Assembly (NCBI GenBank): GCA_002780715.1
Contig: PEUO01000041.1
Span: forward strand, 1-34,826
DNA: 34,826 nucleotides
Direction of reading: 5' to 3'
Source: Deltaproteobacteria bacterium CG03_land_8_20_14_0_80_45_14
GTDB taxonomy: Bacteria > Desulfobacterota > BSN033 > UBA1163
Shown: positions 15,685 to 25,140 of the stretch, piece by piece
Numbering within the stretch: position 1 is the stretch's first letter
Layout: every line of letters starts with the position of its first letter
Translations under genes and position numbers: made by a program
The notes under the pieces: generated by a model
The model's input: the letters and a program-made list of their open reading frames with translations, nothing else
What the model was told of the DNA's origin: nothing
Database searches by the model: none

Positions 15685-15717
15685 TTATTCAAATTGATCA
15701 TAAAGGAGGAACTTCTC

Positions 15718-16026
15718 ATGAAAGGATTTAAAAAGATTTTGCTGTTATTATTGACCCTTTCATTAGTCATTGGCAGTCTTTATTCAACAGGGTGGGCCGG
15801 AGATAGATTTGGGAAGGATGACCCTGTCGCACATGGATGGAGTGCCCTGGATATAATTTTCGCCAGACCCCTTGGGGTTGCTGCGGGAATCGTGGGGACT
15901 GCCATTTTCGTCGTCTCACTGCCTTTTACTATTCCCGCGGGGGGTGTGGGCGACGCAGCAGATATGTTTATTGTTAAACCTTTCCAATTCTCCTTCACTC
16001 GGGAATTCCCGGATGAAGATATTTAA
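15718..16026 (+). CDS. Small exported/membrane protein of unknown function
   Basis: SD AAAGGAGGA (15702-15710) before ATG 15718; signal peptide MKGFKKILLLLLTLSLVIGSLYSTGWA, then a hydrophobic segment GVAAGIVGTAIFVVSLPFTIPAGG. ORF-track start 15694 (TTG) is less likely. Only convincing plus-strand gene in the window. Confidence 0.8.
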   Translation: MKGFKKILLLLLTLSLVIGSLYSTGWAGDRFGKDDPVAHGWSALDIIFARPLGVAAGIVGTAIFVVSLPFTIPAGGVGDAADMFIVKPFQFSFTREFPDEDI

Positions 16027-16382: not shown

Positions 16383-16769
16383 TTATTCTGAAAGACTTTT
16401 TAAAAAATTTTTTAAAATGCTGAGGTCTTCAGGGGAGATATCCATAAACCTTACTCCGCATCGGTAATCTCCCCACCCTTTCCCCAAATGGATATCCATC
16501 CAAACTACCTCTGCCAATACTTCGATGGAATTCAAACGAGAACCTGAAGCAAAAAAGAGTTTAATTTTGAGCTGTTGACCAATTTCTATCTCTTGTGAAA
16601 GATAAACCAACAATCCACCCCCACTGGCATTGAGGGCTCGGCCTGTTTGGGTGATGGATGAGGGGATGAGATGGTACTCTATCGGCAAATCGATTGAAAA
16701 TCGGGGATGTCTCCTCCTTTCTAAATTTGCCACCCCCACATGGGATTTCGTTTCTTGTTTTTCTGTCAC
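16383..16769 (-). CDS. PilZ domain protein (c-di-GMP binding candidate)
   Basis: ERRRHPRFSIDLPIEY...ALNASGGGLLVYL...GVRFMDISPEDLSIL (RxxxR and [D/N]xSxxG motifs). Overlaps the upstream gene by 4 nt. Confidence 0.88.
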   Translation of the reverse strand: MTEKQETKSHVGVANLERRRHPRFSIDLPIEYHLIPSSITQTGRALNASGGGLLVYLSQEIEIGQQLKIKLFFASGSRLNSIEVLAEVVWMDIHLGKGWGDYRCGVRFMDISPEDLSILKNFLKSLSE

Positions 16770-18721
16770 TCTCTCATCCCTTTTTCTGATGGGTTAAAGT
16801 GAACATAAAGTCTTGAACAGAATACTTCGAAGAGACACCCCTCGCACTGTGGTTGGATAGGGAAACAATGTCCTCCTCGTTCTTCTTCCCTTCCCATCCA
16901 GGCCATCGGTTCCTCGACCTTCACAGGATTCTGAGGAAAAGCCTCTTTCGTAAAAGATTGGATTTTAATATCTCCCATCGAATTCCTACCTTGATAAGTG
17001 TCGAAATGGGGATCCACAATGCCTAATCGAGAGGCGACTCTATAAATACCTTCCCCAATGATGATTGGAGTATCGGAAAAATCAACCTCCACGACATCCG
17101 GAATCAATTCGTTAATCCATTGGATCGCTATTCGGCTGTTTTGATGACCCATATGGGGGATGACTTGAATCAACTGTTCCAAATCAAAGGCGTTCCAATA
17201 ATTTTTTTCAAGGATAACCTTTCCGATCTGCTGGACCTTAGGGAGTGCTCGATGAAATAGGTCTCTCCAAACTTCTCCAGATACAAAGGGTGTCCCCTCA
17301 AAAGGTGGCAGGTCATCAAGGAGGAGATTCGGTTGAACGATGAGTCGGAATACCCTTTGGGTGTTTTCCAATGCTTTGATAGATTGGCGCTCTTGATCAA
17401 ACCGGGAATGAACCAATATGGTCAAAAGGGCATGAAGGGAATTTTTAAATTCACCCTCCTTTCGACATTCCCCAAACCACATCGAAAAAATATCACGAGG
17501 TCTTTGATAATAAGTTTCCACTGCCTCTCTAAAATACTCTATCCAAGAGAATGAAGGAAGCCCCCCTTTTTCTATTGTCTCTTCTTTGGTTACCTCTTCT
17601 TTCCTTTGTTCTGCCTTTTCTTCACCCTCGGCTTCTCCGGTGGTCCCAGAAATATCCTCTAGCAATTGGGTGGCTTCTTCAAATACTGAAGCTTCAAGGC
17701 GCGACGCTTCAGCCACTTCCTCTTTATCAGAATCCAGTTCTAAATCGTCCAAAGCTGTTTTTTCTTCTTCTTTTTCTTTTGTTTTTTCTTCTTCTGCTTC
17801 TTCTTTCAATTCATCTGAAACAGTTGGAATAAATCCTTGAATGGTCTCGTCCTCAACGGCTTTCTCTAATTCTTCCCCTTCTTGGCACCCATTCTCCATT
17901 GGCACACCCGAGGGGAGCTCCAAAACTTTTTCTGAAGGTTCAAATGTCGCCTCTGCGGAAGTTTCCTCGAGATTGAGTGAAAGGGGTTCCTCTGCAGCCC
18001 CTTCCCCATCTTTTCCCTTCTCCTCTCTGTTCTCCTCGACATGCAGGAAAGGGCTCTCTGGTTCAGCGGAGAAAGGCGACCGCTCATCTTGGTCTTTTAT
18101 CTCCACCTCCACCCACTCCCTCTTTTTCCTTTTATCCACCGCTGGAATAGGTTGTCCAGAAGAATTCTTAAATGCAACGGAAATCCTTTTAATAAAAATG
18201 TCCCCTTCAAAGACTACCTTAAAGGGAGAAGTTTCTCCTGCTGGGAGAGGGTTAATGGGGAGGGGAGTTTCTTCAAAGGTAATAAATTCTTCAAGATCTC
18301 CAAAAAGTTGAATCAGCGCCCAAATATCATTTAAAGTCTCATCCGATATATTTTCCACCCTTCCTGTGACACTCCATGTTCCTCTTTGCGTCTTCCGGAG
18401 ATAGGAGGACTCCAAGGCCAACTGATGGGGGACCAATTCCTGGAATTCGAGAGAGATGGGCGGGAAATTCCTTCTTTCTTCAACAGAGACCGTTGCTCCG
18501 AAAGACTTAAGGGTTTTGGCAAGCATTTCTGCTTTTTTTAAAGAGAGATTTTTTTTGAGGATGATAGGACAACGGTCAACAATCTTTTTTAATAGAAGAA
18601 AGGGAATACTAAAGGTTTTAGAAAGATTATGACAGAAGGGACTTTTTTCTTCTTCGGTGTTATCTCCGATTCCGATGAGGAGGACTCTATATCTCCCTTC
18701 TTCCTGATTTAATCCAACCAT
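16766..18721 (-). CDS. Multidomain protein: L7/L12-CTD-like N-terminus, FxLYD-like domain, long Glu/Lys-rich linker, C-terminal HhH-GPD/endonuclease III-like domain with Fe-S motif
   Basis: VDRCPIILKKNLSLKKAEMLAKTLKSFGATVSVEE; WSVTGRVENISDETLNDIWALIQLFG; acidic linker; SLHALLTILVHSRFDQERQSIKAL, VEVDFSDTPIIIGEGIYRVASRLGIVD, C-FPIQPQ-C-EG-C-LFEVF-C (C-X6-C-X2-C-X5-C). SD AAAAGG upstream. Confidence 0.8.
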   Translation of the reverse strand: MVGLNQEEGRYRVLLIGIGDNTEEEKSPFCHNLSKTFSIPFLLLKKIVDRCPIILKKNLSLKKAEMLAKTLKSFGATVSVEERRNFPPISLEFQELVPHQLALESSYLRKTQRGTWSVTGRVENISDETLNDIWALIQLFGDLEEFITFEETPLPINPLPAGETSPFKVVFEGDIFIKRISVAFKNSSGQPIPAVDKRKKREWVEVEIKDQDERSPFSAEPESPFLHVEENREEKGKDGEGAAEEPLSLNLEETSAEATFEPSEKVLELPSGVPMENGCQEGEELEKAVEDETIQGFIPTVSDELKEEAEEEKTKEKEEEKTALDDLELDSDKEEVAEASRLEASVFEEATQLLEDISGTTGEAEGEEKAEQRKEEVTKEETIEKGGLPSFSWIEYFREAVETYYQRPRDIFSMWFGECRKEGEFKNSLHALLTILVHSRFDQERQSIKALENTQRVFRLIVQPNLLLDDLPPFEGTPFVSGEVWRDLFHRALPKVQQIGKVILEKNYWNAFDLEQLIQVIPHMGHQNSRIAIQWINELIPDVVEVDFSDTPIIIGEGIYRVASRLGIVDPHFDTYQGRNSMGDIKIQSFTKEAFPQNPVKVEEPMAWMGREEERGGHCFPIQPQCEGCLFEVFCSRLYVHFNPSEKGMRE

Positions 18722-18944: not shown

Positions 18945-19346
18945 TTATTTTCCCACCTCTTTCAATAAAGTCGTTAACCGACTAAAGTCTTTTTCTTCTA
19001 TATATTGAAACTGCAATCCATATCGGTGCTCGCCCCAACTTTCCCTGGCAGCCAAATCACACCAGACCACTTTGGCCACCGCTTTAACCGTGTCCAATTC
19101 TAAGCCTCTTACATAAAATATCTCAATTTTCAATAAAGTTCCTATCGCGACCCTTTCGGGTAGATAGACGAGAAGTCCCCCCTCGCTTGCATTCGCTACC
19201 ATCCCTCCAAAGGTTTCTTTCCCATCAACACGGGAATAATCTAGGGGCAGCTCGACACTAAACCTTGGATGTTTCCTCTTTTCAATCGAGAGGACACCCA
19301 TTTTGGTTTGTGAGGCAGATTGATTTTGTTGATTCATTTTGTACAT
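18945..19346 (-). CDS. PilZ domain protein, paralogue of 16383..16769
   Basis: IEKRKHPRFSVELPLDYSRV...VANASEGGLLVYLPERVAIG...YGLQFQYIEEKDFSRL. Confidence 0.88.
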   Translation of the reverse strand: MYKMNQQNQSASQTKMGVLSIEKRKHPRFSVELPLDYSRVDGKETFGGMVANASEGGLLVYLPERVAIGTLLKIEIFYVRGLELDTVKAVAKVVWCDLAARESWGEHRYGLQFQYIEEKDFSRLTTLLKEVGK

Positions 19347-19658: not shown

Positions 19659-20195
19659 TCACTGTCTTACCCATTCCGGCTTTGCTTTATAGAGTTCAGC
19701 TTCTTCCGGAATCTTTTTTTCTAGCATGTTCTTGGCTTCTTCAATCTGAATTTTACATTGGTCCATTTCATTCTTGACTTGGTCTCTTTCTCTCCGAAGA
19801 TTTCCTCTCTCCGCTGTACTCTTTGAATCATTAAACCTCTCTGTCAATTTATTATACTTAGCCCTCAAAATTTCCAATTTATCTTGATATTCTCTTAATT
19901 TCTTTTTCCATTCCTCCACTCGTCCCTTCCAATAGTCTTCTCCCCTTCCTAATCGATCCCTATAAGTTTCCTCTTTTTTCTTAGGGGTTGCTCCCCCCTC
20001 AACTTTCGTTTCTTCCTTCTCTTCTGGCAACCCAATTTTTTCAGCCTTAAGTCGATATCTCTCTGGAACTTGCATGATATCATCTGTGAAAGAGACCACT
20101 CCTTTTTCATCAACCCATTTGTAAACCTCTGCAAAAGAGATGTCTGAAATAAAGAAGATGAATAAAATAATAACTAAAATTCGTTTCATAACCAT
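19659..20195 (-). CDS. Exported DUF4124 domain protein with coiled coil
   Basis: Signal peptide MKRILVIILFIFFISDISFA then EVYKWVDEKGVVSFTDDIMQVPERYR (DUF4124), Lys/Glu coiled coil. Start may be 20189. Confidence 0.85.
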   Translation of the reverse strand: MVMKRILVIILFIFFISDISFAEVYKWVDEKGVVSFTDDIMQVPERYRLKAEKIGLPEEKEETKVEGGATPKKKEETYRDRLGRGEDYWKGRVEEWKKKLREYQDKLEILRAKYNKLTERFNDSKSTAERGNLRRERDQVKNEMDQCKIQIEEAKNMLEKKIPEEAELYKAKPEWVRQ

Positions 20196-20533: not shown

Positions 20534-21256
20534 TTAACCCAAACCGTTCTTCTTCACTCCTCGCACTACTTCCGATGGAAATCCGAGTTGGGATACAAAT
20601 TCCCTGTGAAATTCTCTAAACCCTATCTTTTCGAGAAAAGGTTGGGCCATGACCCCTCTGCATCCAGCTAAGAGAGGTGGCCTTAGTTTATAAATCCCTT
20701 CATAAATTTGATTCAACCATCTCTCCCCTTTTGTCATGTTGGCTAAAATGATTCTGCCCCCATCTTTTAGAACTCTTTTAAATTCCAAAAGAATGGGAAT
20801 GAAATCTTCAACAGGAAGGATGTCCAAGAGATATTGGCTCATGATGACATCAAACGTTTCGTCCTCGAAAGGAAGATGCCGACAATCGCAGAGATGGAGG
20901 GTATAATTCCTTTGTTTTGTTTTAAAAATTCTTTTTCTTGCCTTCTCCACCATTTTCATGGAGACATCGATTCCATCCACCCATCCATTCTGATTCCTCT
21001 TCAGTATCTCCACAAAATTGAGTCCGGTTCCAAGGGCAACTTCCAAAACTTTTTCTCCGTTCTGAATTGCAGCGATCTCTAATGCCCTTTGACGAGCTTT
21101 TGACTCCATCAAAATTCCAAACAAATCATAGACCGGAGCAATCCAATTATATTTCCGAATAAGTTCTTGATGTGTGTATCTTGCCTCTAAAATCTCTTGT
21201 TTCATTGATAGACTCCCGTGACTCATGTGAGGGCTTTTAACCCCACTATTCCCCAT
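20534..21256 (-). CDS. Class I SAM-dependent methyltransferase (UbiE/methyltransf_11-like)
   Basis: VLEVALGTGLNFVEIL, DGIDVSMKMVEKAR, LPFEDETFDVIMSQYLL, FKRVLKDGGRIILANM. Start may be an internal Met. Confidence 0.9.
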   Translation of the reverse strand: MGNSGVKSPHMSHGSLSMKQEILEARYTHQELIRKYNWIAPVYDLFGILMESKARQRALEIAAIQNGEKVLEVALGTGLNFVEILKRNQNGWVDGIDVSMKMVEKARKRIFKTKQRNYTLHLCDCRHLPFEDETFDVIMSQYLLDILPVEDFIPILLEFKRVLKDGGRIILANMTKGERWLNQIYEGIYKLRPPLLAGCRGVMAQPFLEKIGFREFHREFVSQLGFPSEVVRGVKKNGLG

Positions 21257-21286
21257 CCCTCAGAGGGAAAAATGATCTGGAAATAA

Positions 21287-21314
21287 ATTATAGGATTTGA
21301 AGGAGAAGAGTCAA
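21287..21314 (-). promoter_or_regulatory. Candidate sigma70-type promoter for the methyltransferase gene
   Basis: Minus strand TTGACT (21314-21309) - 16 nt - TATAAT (21292-21287); -35 overlaps the stop codon of the VWA gene. Confidence 0.6.
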
Positions 21315-22984
21315 GATTTTTTTATATGAGTCGGGTTAAAATAATCCCTTATCCTTCCGAGAACAAGGTGGGGGATATCTTCTTTTCGTTTGACCGTATA
21401 GATGCTGATGTTTTTCCTTTTCTCAACAGCCTTTTCAAATCGGGCTGCATAAGGGTTGTCTCCAATGTGAACGGCCGTCACCCGGTTTTGGATCTGTCCA
21501 AAAAATCCGATCAATGCCTCAAGGTTGGTAATTTTCATATCGGTAATGATGAAGAGATCCAAGTTTTTCTTCCCCTGGGTCAATGGGATTAAATCCTCTA
21601 AGTCCAACGCCGTCCCACCCCCAAAATATTTACAAAGAACGCGGTAGATGTCCTCTCGCTGGTCTGTATAATTCAAAATATCCTTTCCCCCCATCGGGGC
21701 ATCACTGAAATTATAGATAGCTACTTTTGAACCATTTTGAAGATAGGCATTGGTGGCACAGGCTGCTCCCAGAACAGCATAGGAGAGGCTTTTTCGAGGG
21801 TTGATCATACTTCCTGAAGAATCGATGGCAATTAAGCAATCGGGAGTGCCTTCCATTTTTCCTCTCCCTTTCCCCTCTCTTTTCGTCCAAATCTGAGTGA
21901 TACCTGGCATGATCTTCCCAAAACTGGTCCAAATATCCACGTCTTGAAAAGGTGACCCAATCTCCCAGGGAGAATGAGAATGTGGATGGAGGGACCCTTT
22001 TTCTTCCAAAGGGACTTTCTTGATAGGGATCGAATAATTTTCCGCCAGCTTCATATAGAAAAGGATGTCTGCATCGATGGGACTCCCTTGACCTCTCCCC
22101 ATCCCTCCTTCCATTCCATAACCCGCCCCTTTTAATTCGTCGGAAAAGTCCTCCACGACATCTTTGAATTCGGACAAAACCATGGTCTGCCTTGCATAAT
22201 CCCTTAAACCCTGATCGATCTCTTCGTTGGAATAGTGGTTCAAATAGTCCTCCCCTTGAGGATTGTGTTCCCCTTTCCCTCCCTTGCTCCCTTGTTGTTT
22301 CTGTTCTTCAACGAGAAGGGGTTTGAGAGAGCGGGCAAACTTTCGGATACTCTCTCCCCATCGTGAGCGATCCAAATAGGGAATTCGTGCAAGTCTTCGG
22401 ACAATATCTGCGTGTCCTTTCACGCTCATCTTGGAAGGCGGAATTCCCAAATCGATTCCCCAAATCTTTTGGTAAAGGAAAGCGATCACTTCCTCGATCG
22501 TCCCTTTTTTCAGGTTTCGATGTAATTCTGGAATCTCCGTAAACCTCTTTCTAACACAATGGGTATCCGCAATGACATCGATAAAGTAATTGGACATCTG
22601 TTTGGCCAATTCCTTATCGCCCACCACTTTCTTTGCCTCTGCATAAAGCCTGAGATGTGTATGGAAATCCCATGGGCAGAAGGTGTAATGGGTAATCCCA
22701 TGATCGAGAAGAGCCTCGATGACTCTTTTTTCAGGCATCTTGTCTTTCATTTGTGAAACAAAAGCACCATTGATGGTCATCTGCTTCTGTTTCATCTCCA
22801 ACCCAACGCCTTCTCCCTCTTCACCCTCACCCTGCTCCGGGTCAGGGATCCCCTTGACCTTGGGCATAGGGATCTCAGGATAGAGATGTTTTCTCCTCAA
22901 CTTGGGCCAAATCTCTTCAATGATCGATTGATAATGTTGTTCTTCCATCCTTAATCGCTGAGGTTCAACAAATCTTCTCTTCAT
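21311..22984 (-). CDS. VWA (von Willebrand factor A) domain protein, MoxR-partner type
   Basis: CLIAIDSSGSMINPRKSLSYAVLGA (MIDAS DxSxS), YFGGGTALDLEDLIP, DLFIITDMKITN. Confidence 0.9.
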   Translation of the reverse strand: MKRRFVEPQRLRMEEQHYQSIIEEIWPKLRRKHLYPEIPMPKVKGIPDPEQGEGEEGEGVGLEMKQKQMTINGAFVSQMKDKMPEKRVIEALLDHGITHYTFCPWDFHTHLRLYAEAKKVVGDKELAKQMSNYFIDVIADTHCVRKRFTEIPELHRNLKKGTIEEVIAFLYQKIWGIDLGIPPSKMSVKGHADIVRRLARIPYLDRSRWGESIRKFARSLKPLLVEEQKQQGSKGGKGEHNPQGEDYLNHYSNEEIDQGLRDYARQTMVLSEFKDVVEDFSDELKGAGYGMEGGMGRGQGSPIDADILFYMKLAENYSIPIKKVPLEEKGSLHPHSHSPWEIGSPFQDVDIWTSFGKIMPGITQIWTKREGKGRGKMEGTPDCLIAIDSSGSMINPRKSLSYAVLGAACATNAYLQNGSKVAIYNFSDAPMGGKDILNYTDQREDIYRVLCKYFGGGTALDLEDLIPLTQGKKNLDLFIITDMKITNLEALIGFFGQIQNRVTAVHIGDNPYAARFEKAVEKRKNISIYTVKRKEDIPHLVLGRIRDYFNPTHIKKS

Positions 22985-22986
22985 CT

Positions 22987-23754
22987 TTAGTAATAAAGAT
23001 TGGGATACCGCACTTTTCCTGGATAAACGAGTTTATCCCTCTCGTAGACCTTCCCCTCGACAATATTTCCAAGCCCCCTAACCCTTCCCCCTACATAAAT
23101 TTCTCCTCCCATCATCCATTCACCCGTATGGAGGCCGATGTTCTTCTTGATCAAAATTTTTCCCCCCCTCATCCCTGCCCCTGTCCAGTTCTTTGAATTT
23201 CCCTCAATGACTAACTCCCCCCCCTCAAGGCCAATGCCCGTGAAATCGCCGGTATCTCCCTCGATCATCAATCGCTTTCCTTTTGAAAGTCGAAATCCAA
23301 TGAGATTGATCTCTGTCTTCAGCTCAGAAAGCTTGAGGACGATCTCTTCTTCCATTGCGTAGTTACATAATGCAGAAATGTAGACGCCGGCTGGTCCTGG
23401 GATGAGATACGGAATCCTTTGGGTGTTCTCTAAAGCAAAGCAAAAGTCTTCAATATCCTCTGCCGTATAATCGACCTCCCTTACATATTTCTCCGCCACC
23501 TCATAAGCCTTGATGATCGTATTGTATTGCACCATCCAGACAAGTTCCTTGGCCTCCTCTTCTAAAAGTTTCTCGTATCCCCGGCGGATCCGATCCATCA
23601 CCGCCTCGGTGGATTGGACAATCTGATCCAGGGGGAGGTCAGGGGTGGGGGCAGCAAAGGTTTTAAATTCCTCAAAGGGATTCTTGGTTATCCAGCTTTC
23701 TTTGTCTGGGGGGAGAATGGAACTCTTTTTTGGCGGGGTGGGGGATTTCATCAT
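22987..23754 (-). CDS. GXGXG-motif beta-helix protein (glutamate synthase alpha C-terminal/FwdC-like fold)
   Basis: GDFTGIGLEGGELVIEGNSKNWTGAGMRGGKILIKKNIGLHTGEWMMGGEIYVGGRVRGLGN. Confidence 0.8.
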   Translation of the reverse strand: MMKSPTPPKKSSILPPDKESWITKNPFEEFKTFAAPTPDLPLDQIVQSTEAVMDRIRRGYEKLLEEEAKELVWMVQYNTIIKAYEVAEKYVREVDYTAEDIEDFCFALENTQRIPYLIPGPAGVYISALCNYAMEEEIVLKLSELKTEINLIGFRLSKGKRLMIEGDTGDFTGIGLEGGELVIEGNSKNWTGAGMRGGKILIKKNIGLHTGEWMMGGEIYVGGRVRGLGNIVEGKVYERDKLVYPGKVRYPNLYY

Positions 23755-23799
23755 TAAATCTAGCCTCTCAAAAACACGATAGAAAAAAACGTTCCCGCC

Positions 23800-25140
23800 T
23801 TAGCTCCTTCGGGTATCGATGTCTTTTTTAACTTCCACATAAAGGGGGTGATCCCCTTCCAAGGGTTCCAAATCCCCCCCTTGAAAAACCTTCGATCCGA
23901 CCGCCAAGGCATCTTTCAGATGTTCGCTCTGTTCTCGATATCTCTGAGAAACTGTTTTCACCGCTTCCTTTGCAAGAAAAATAGGGAAGGGATCATCCCT
24001 TTTCGATCTCTCTTTCTGAGAAAGGACCTCGTCCTTCCATTGGATCCGATGGGCCAACGTATAGGGAATGACTGCCTTGATATGTTCGATGTCGATCTCA
24101 GAATCCTCCATCAACCATGCCAATCCCTGCGCATACTGCTTTATAGAGGAAGGGAGTCGATTGGAGGCACAATTTTTAATTTGGCGGCAGAGATATTCCG
24201 TATAGTGACACCCCTCTTCACAGTTTTCGACAACCCGTTTCTGCCCATACCGTTCACAGAAAGACAATTCAGCGAGAAGCATTCGAGTAAAGGCGCTGGC
24301 ATCGAGGTCCAACTCTAAACTTTCCATCTCTGCACGAATTTGATCACGGTCTTGTCTCTGAAAGGACTTGACCCCTAATACTTCATCAAGATATTCCCCG
24401 TAGGCATTACAAACTTCTTCCATTTTAGAAATCTTCCTCTCATAAGCGATCTTGTATTTCAGAATGTGATAAAGCTCCTTTTCATACTTCGAATGTCTAA
24501 GGATATGATCTTTTCGCTTATCCTTCCCAATGAGAAAAGAAAGATTGGCCCCAGGGTATCTCGACTCCACCATGACATCGAATCGATCCACCAGAGGAGC
24601 GATGATGGTATTGGTCCCTCCATCTTGATAATTGGCGGTGGCAAAAAGACAGTATTCCTCGTTAATGATCATCTCATTGAGGTATTCCCAATTCCCTCGA
24701 TCCACCCCATCCAGGATCATGCTCTGTTTGGTTTCTGGAAGGCGATTGATCTCATCCACAATTTTTACTGGGATTTGGGAAAAATTGGTCCACACCACAT
24801 CCTCCTCGCCTCGATTCAATCTGCCCAGATCCGGTCTGCCAATAATTTTTTCCTCTGTTTGTTCCGGGTGCCCTGAAACCTCACTCCCCCAAATCACGCC
24901 CAATGGAAATTGGTAGATGAGGGAGCAGACATATTCTGCGGAGGTTGTCTTCCCCAACCCTGGTTCTCCAATAATCAATTCCTTTCCCTTCTTCAGGCCG
25001 GTAAGAAGGCTTAGCAGGATCGCCGAATTAAAACGCTCTCCTTTAATTTCTATATCTGGACGGTTGAAGTAGAGATGGTCGCTGATAAATTGGTATATTT
25101 CCATTGCTTGTTTCCGATACCCGTTCTTTTCCACGCCCAC
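23800..25140 (-). CDS. MoxR-type AAA+ ATPase
   Basis: Walker A GEPGLGKTT, Walker B PVKIVDEINRLPETKQ, sensor region LFATANYQDGGTNTIIAPLVDRFDVMVE. Confidence 0.92.
   Translation of the reverse strand: MGVEKNGYRKQAMEIYQFISDHLYFNRPDIEIKGERFNSAILLSLLTGLKKGKELIIGEPGLGKTTSAEYVCSLIYQFPLGVIWGSEVSGHPEQTEEKIIGRPDLGRLNRGEEDVVWTNFSQIPVKIVDEINRLPETKQSMILDGVDRGNWEYLNEMIINEEYCLFATANYQDGGTNTIIAPLVDRFDVMVESRYPGANLSFLIGKDKRKDHILRHSKYEKELYHILKYKIAYERKISKMEEVCNAYGEYLDEVLGVKSFQRQDRDQIRAEMESLELDLDASAFTRMLLAELSFCERYGQKRVVENCEEGCHYTEYLCRQIKNCASNRLPSSIKQYAQGLAWLMEDSEIDIEHIKAVIPYTLAHRIQWKDEVLSQKERSKRDDPFPIFLAKEAVKTVSQRYREQSEHLKDALAVGSKVFQGGDLEPLEGDHPLYVEVKKDIDTRRS

Follow-up and report, generated by a model that had tools for sequence, protein, structure and literature searches.

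Endonuclease III (EndoIII) and MutY are DNA-repair glycosylases of the HhH-GPD superfamily (HhH, helix-hairpin-helix) that carry a [4Fe-4S] iron-sulfur (Fe-S) loop (PF00730, PF10576). Stand-alone PilZ proteins are small adaptors or effectors that act with partners, as in PilB-PilZ-FimX, and one of them, CdbS, influences chromosome organisation in Myxococcus (PMC10313047). Parts resembling both, together with a likeness to the C-terminal domain of ribosomal protein L7/L12, occur at a single locus of Deltaproteobacteria bacterium CG03_land_8_20_14_0_80_45_14 (assembly GCA_002780715.1), where a gene for a 651-amino acid (aa) protein lies among PilZ genes on contig PEUO01000041.1 (positions 1 to 34,826; this whole stretch of 34,826 nucleotides (nt) is referred to as the window). 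The complete fusion is confirmed, and a single small Desulfobacterota family (f1) conserves it. It shares with EndoIII and MutY the exact cysteine spacing, the preceding helix and a profile register of about 200 columns, and differs from them in lacking the catalytic Lys, the catalytic Asp and the HhH glycines, and in carrying L7/L12-like and FxLYD-like domains on the same chain. Taken singly, the Fe-S motif and each domain belong to known kinds; what is new is the full architecture and its PilZ cassette, neither of which turned up in Pfam, NCBIfam or the literature searched, and no single Pfam or NCBIfam family matches the whole architecture. The open reading frame (ORF) starts with ATG and occupies the minus strand, the plus strand of the same interval being riddled with stops, and its segments are as follows:

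16766–18721, minus strand: gene of the 651-aa protein (L7/L12-like, FxLYD-like, acidic linker, EndoIII-type Fe-S domain); 12 full-length homologues have the identical segment order
18470–18700, minus strand: segment like the L7/L12 C-terminal domain, residues 8–84; Pfam PF00542 in 10 of 12 members, fold model, Foldseek
18098–18469, minus strand: FxLYD-like segment, residues 85–208; NCBIfam NF038353 in 8 of 12 members, below cut-off in the window protein
17561–18097, minus strand: Glu-rich variable linker, residues 209–387; composition, poor conservation, varying length
16769–17560, minus strand: C-terminal domain, probably divergent HhH-GPD/Fe-S, residues 388–651; hhalign, PDB profile matches, mutY model
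17135–17161, minus strand: degenerate HhH hairpin IPHMGHQNS, residues 521–529, with Gln527 at the Lys position; hhalign register
16817–16867, minus strand: [4Fe-4S]-type motif C619-X6-C626-X2-C629-X5-C635; invariant in 12 species, rarity tests

Residues 619–635, CFPIQPQCEGCLFEVFC, have exactly the C-X6-C-X2-C-X5-C spacing (C619, C626, C629, C635) that an earlier note on this DNA had pointed out, and the four cysteines are invariant across all 12 full-length homologues, which come from 12 species. The motif arose in 1 of 20,000 shuffles of the protein. In a set of 406 ORFs, each 150 aa or longer, from the window and neighbouring loci, only members of this protein family have it. Binding of a [4Fe-4S] cluster by the C-terminal domain is a prediction drawn from the motif. 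When the C-terminal 264 residues were compared by hhalign with 19 EndoIII/MutY-type proteins from relatives, 199 columns aligned (Prob 74.5, E 2.7e-5); the highest Prob among 80 column shuffles was 1.4. The best profile match was to a Desulfobacterota family of divergent EndoIII-like proteins, about 250 aa long (L050/L113 and L114-L120), with Prob 92.6 against L050 alone and Prob 95 (E 3.6e-8) against the family; IPGIG..SRMA is shared with IPHMG..SRIA in L050. L050 itself matches the EndoIII/MutY set with E 1.8e-12 (hhalign), although Pfam HhH-GPD does not recognise it. Members of the L050 family differ from the 651-aa protein in being stand-alone and in retaining the Asp of the GPD motif, along with the Cys motif. 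A DNA adenine methylase-like ORF is found close to L050, whose contig is possibly mobile.

Matches to MutY/EndoIII made up 18 of the 21 in a PDB profile search with the C-terminal domain, each of them weak singly (E 0.25–1), and the NCBIfam mutY model was matched by 5 of the 12 members (best E 0.0059). The single-sequence Pfam search gave nothing above threshold and no HhH-GPD assignment for this domain. Similarity is carried mainly by the Fe-S loop and the preceding helix: with the Cys tail removed, hhalign scores no better than it does on shuffles, and the remaining stretch retrieved no HhH-GPD chain from the PDB in a profile search. For these two reasons the EndoIII-type Fe-S loop is secure at the level of sequence, while the remainder of the HhH-GPD fold is probable, on the strength of a consistent register. 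The EndoIII homology claimed earlier thus stands for the loop, where profiles support it, and less firmly for the rest of the fold; the register drawn by eye (IYRVASRLG under IFRVCNR, IPHMG under LPGVG) was reproduced by hhalign. AlphaFold2, run with only the sequences of the window and of one relative, L032, as input, gave poor models. That of the C-terminus (predicted local distance difference test, pLDDT, 35) places a helix-loop-helix at the predicted hairpin with low confidence, and a Foldseek search with it returned noise only.

In the N-terminal half, the PF00542 match spans residues 45–80 and falls below the cut-off in the window protein (E 5e-4), with scores of 20.7–23.7 bits against a curated cut-off of 25.9; a paralogue of this N-terminus, encoded elsewhere in the genome, clears it at 26.2 bits. 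The AlphaFold2 model of this part (pLDDT 41, low confidence) has the right order of elements, beta-alpha-alpha-beta-alpha-beta, and Foldseek placed L7/L12 C-terminal domain structures first (prob 1.00), followed by ClpS. The likeness to the L7/L12 C-terminal domain, which had been proposed for the N-terminus, and to the ClpS fold is thus upheld by a sequence match and by equal secondary-structure order, although here the segment is a non-ribosomal module of a larger protein. The FxLYD-like segment that had been noted next to it is a weaker case: NF038353 matches the window protein with E 0.02 at full length and 0.0016–0.0022 when trimmed (14.7–17.8 bits against a cut-off of 23); the match is seen in 8 of 12 members, and the window protein itself stays under the cut-off. 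The acidic linker, put earlier at about 170 residues, measures 177 aa with 29% Glu over residues 210–386.

With the N-terminal profile, 35 of the 396 Desulfobacterota genomes sampled gave a match, in some cases perhaps to the FxLYD-like part only. Since L7/L12-like N-termini also precede Yip1 and RDD membrane domains elsewhere in these genomes, this part is a mobile module; the examples are G000:C17 (L002 613-1767), L022 and L023, each with a zinc-ribbon-like segment as well as the Yip1 or RDD domain, and L023 additionally has a T2SSG/pilin-like part. A second family of the class, f2, matches the 651-aa protein over all 190 N-terminal residues (hhalign E 1.2e-32) and continues with a C-terminus that is different or unrecognisable. 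The f2 C-terminus ending LLGADYCQDGNCEHCSLS was tried as HhH-GPD, and no profile link was obtained. In the f2 members L015-L018 and L107-L109, which adjoin DUF4124, the C-terminus ends LLGADYCQDGNCEHC, possibly a decayed Fe-S end with three cysteines.

Family f1 was surveyed in 17 genomes, and the gene is present in three genera, one of the relatives being the metagenome-assembled Syntrophaceae bacterium UBA1163. The neighbourhood survey that the earlier note had proposed found the complete fusion conserved, with a full-length gene of identical segment order in 12 of the 17; in G010 the gene is cut by the contig end, and in the other four it is lost or eroded, leaving remnants in G001 and G014 (N-terminal only in the latter) and nothing in G007 and G013. 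At G001:C65 3847-4138 (L110), N- and C-terminal remnants lie less than 50 nt apart between retained flanking genes, with about 560 codons gone internally, unless this is a misassembly. Whole-protein identity among homologues is 37–66%. Purifying selection acts on all three domains, where the ratio of nonsynonymous to synonymous substitution rates (dN/dS) is about 0.08–0.25, and the linker drifts. Across the 396 sampled Desulfobacterota genomes, the only phylum scanned with profiles, the C-terminal profile found nothing outside f1, and inside f1 its sole additional match was the distant stand-alone HhH-GPD protein L050. The taxonomic range is narrow on present evidence.

The gene is embedded in a cassette whose order across f1 is DUF4124, PilZ-C, the 651-aa gene, PilZ-B and PilZ-A; the window has no PilZ-B, and its other members are:

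16383–16769, minus strand: PilZ-A gene, its start overlapping the stop of the 651-aa gene by 4 nt (GTGA); Pfam PilZ 54.9 bits, conserved downstream position
18945–19346, minus strand: PilZ-C gene, directly upstream of the 651-aa gene; Pfam PilZ 54.4 bits, conserved position
19659–20195, minus strand: DUF4124 exported coiled-coil protein; Pfam DUF4124 33 bits, conserved f1 position

The cyclic di-GMP (c-di-GMP) motifs RxxxR and [DN]xSxxG are present in the PilZ genes of the window and in the homologous PilZ ORFs listed, and in PilZ-A they can be read directly as RxxxR and NxSxxG. PilZ-B occurs in 10 of the 12 genomes with an intact 651-aa gene and is intact in none of the four without it (Fisher p 0.008, a test that ignores phylogeny). 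The f2 homologue lies directly downstream of DUF4124, and PilZ genes are nearby where the region is covered. As with described stand-alone PilZ proteins these are small putative adaptors or effectors, and here their genes adjoin the presumed partner; the literature searched contained no EndoIII-type Fe-S partner of PilZ proteins. A search against Rfam gave neither a riboswitch nor any other RNA for the window or the cassette. Upstream of the cassette (20534–25140) is a conserved run of genes for a methyltransferase, a large protein of unknown family, an FwdC/glutamate-synthase-alpha-like protein and an AAA-like ATPase, and on the opposite strand (15694–16026, plus) is a small exported-looking protein whose position is conserved in f1.

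The C-terminal domain might still be an active, atypical DNA glycosylase that uses another catalytic residue and has accessory N-terminal domains. Its Fe-S loop is that of EndoIII/MutY, but in the hhalign register the Lys column of the 12 homologues reads Q,P,Q,Q,R,R,R,R,Q,R,S,P, in line with the loss suspected earlier, and the suggestion that an Asp may remain did not hold, as the Asp column of the GPD motif reads G,R,G,E,S,S,T,T,N,S,Q,G. Since neither column is conserved, the usual glycosylase chemistry is unlikely as judged from the alignment. The HhH glycines are also gone (IPHM where LPGV is expected), the neighbours checked (PilZ, DUF4124) form no dedicated repair cassette, and the genome has three other proteins above the HhH-GPD cut-off. 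The crenarchaeal glycosylase Sis-HhH-GPD is active with Glu replacing Lys and Ser replacing Asp (PMC11754123), and several of the homologues have Ser or Thr at the Asp position; even so, an enzyme of this kind is improbable. Hardly better placed is the view that the domain has only the Fe-S loop in common with EndoIII, the remainder being some other all-helical fold: the collapse of the profile matches without the Cys tail is what it would predict, yet about 200 hhalign columns fall in the expected order with several template sets, the alignment to L050 is free of gaps for 22 residues at and near the hairpin, and the low-confidence model has its helix-loop-helix at the predicted place.

Somewhat less unlikely, though still doubtful, is a non-catalytic, DNA-binding and redox-sensitive protein associated with the nucleoid or with repair, through which PilZ would tie c-di-GMP to chromosome organisation. 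CdbS offers a precedent in Myxococcus (PMC10313047), but the HhH hairpin, which is the main backbone-binding element, is degenerate here, and the linker is strongly acidic. The conserved PilZ cassette, the best functional clue, shifts the interpretation from DNA binding towards a signalling component. It had been missed when the protein was called a DNA-binding or structural/sensory Fe-S protein. The best explanation, at a probability of about 0.5, is a non-catalytic Fe-S scaffold or regulatory protein, or a sensor, working with the co-encoded c-di-GMP receptors (PilZ). In its favour are the invariant cysteines and the profile homology to EndoIII/MutY, the unconserved catalytic columns, the purifying selection on the three domains, the conserved cassette with c-di-GMP motifs intact in the PilZ ORFs listed, the association with PilZ-B and the f2 N-terminus beside DUF4124. 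The C-terminus would be a degenerated EndoIII/MutY-type domain still holding a [4Fe-4S] cluster, tethered by the long acidic linker to an FxLYD-like domain and an L7/L12-like (ClpS-like fold) protein-binding domain. A stand-alone PilZ protein may dock on the 651-aa protein depending on c-di-GMP, and the cluster may stabilise the C-terminal domain or serve as a readout of redox state or iron supply; a downstream partner would be bound by the L7/L12-like head.

Several points weigh against this signalling role. In f2 the N-terminus is kept, but no alignment of the C-terminus with the Fe-S domain was possible, and the window genome and G004 hold the 651-aa gene without PilZ-B. PilZ-A and PilZ-C must serve other roles too, because genomes that have lost the gene (G007, G001, G014) still have both. 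Losing Lys and Asp is no proof of inactivity, because Sis-HhH-GPD works without either (PMC11754123). We infer that a cluster is bound, that the protein meets PilZ, that it has no catalytic activity and which way the signal runs.

A more specific form of the signalling role, in which the fold of a repair Fe-S glycosylase has turned into a non-enzymatic, redox- or iron-responsive PilZ partner and the state of the cluster gates PilZ output via the L7/L12-like docking head, is a speculative proposal with a small chance of being correct, and a connection of this kind between c-di-GMP signalling and Fe-S status did not turn up in the literature searched. If the signalling role is right, a DNA-repair Fe-S module would have been reused outside repair and tied to second-messenger receptors, and an L7/L12-like domain would have gained a non-ribosomal role.
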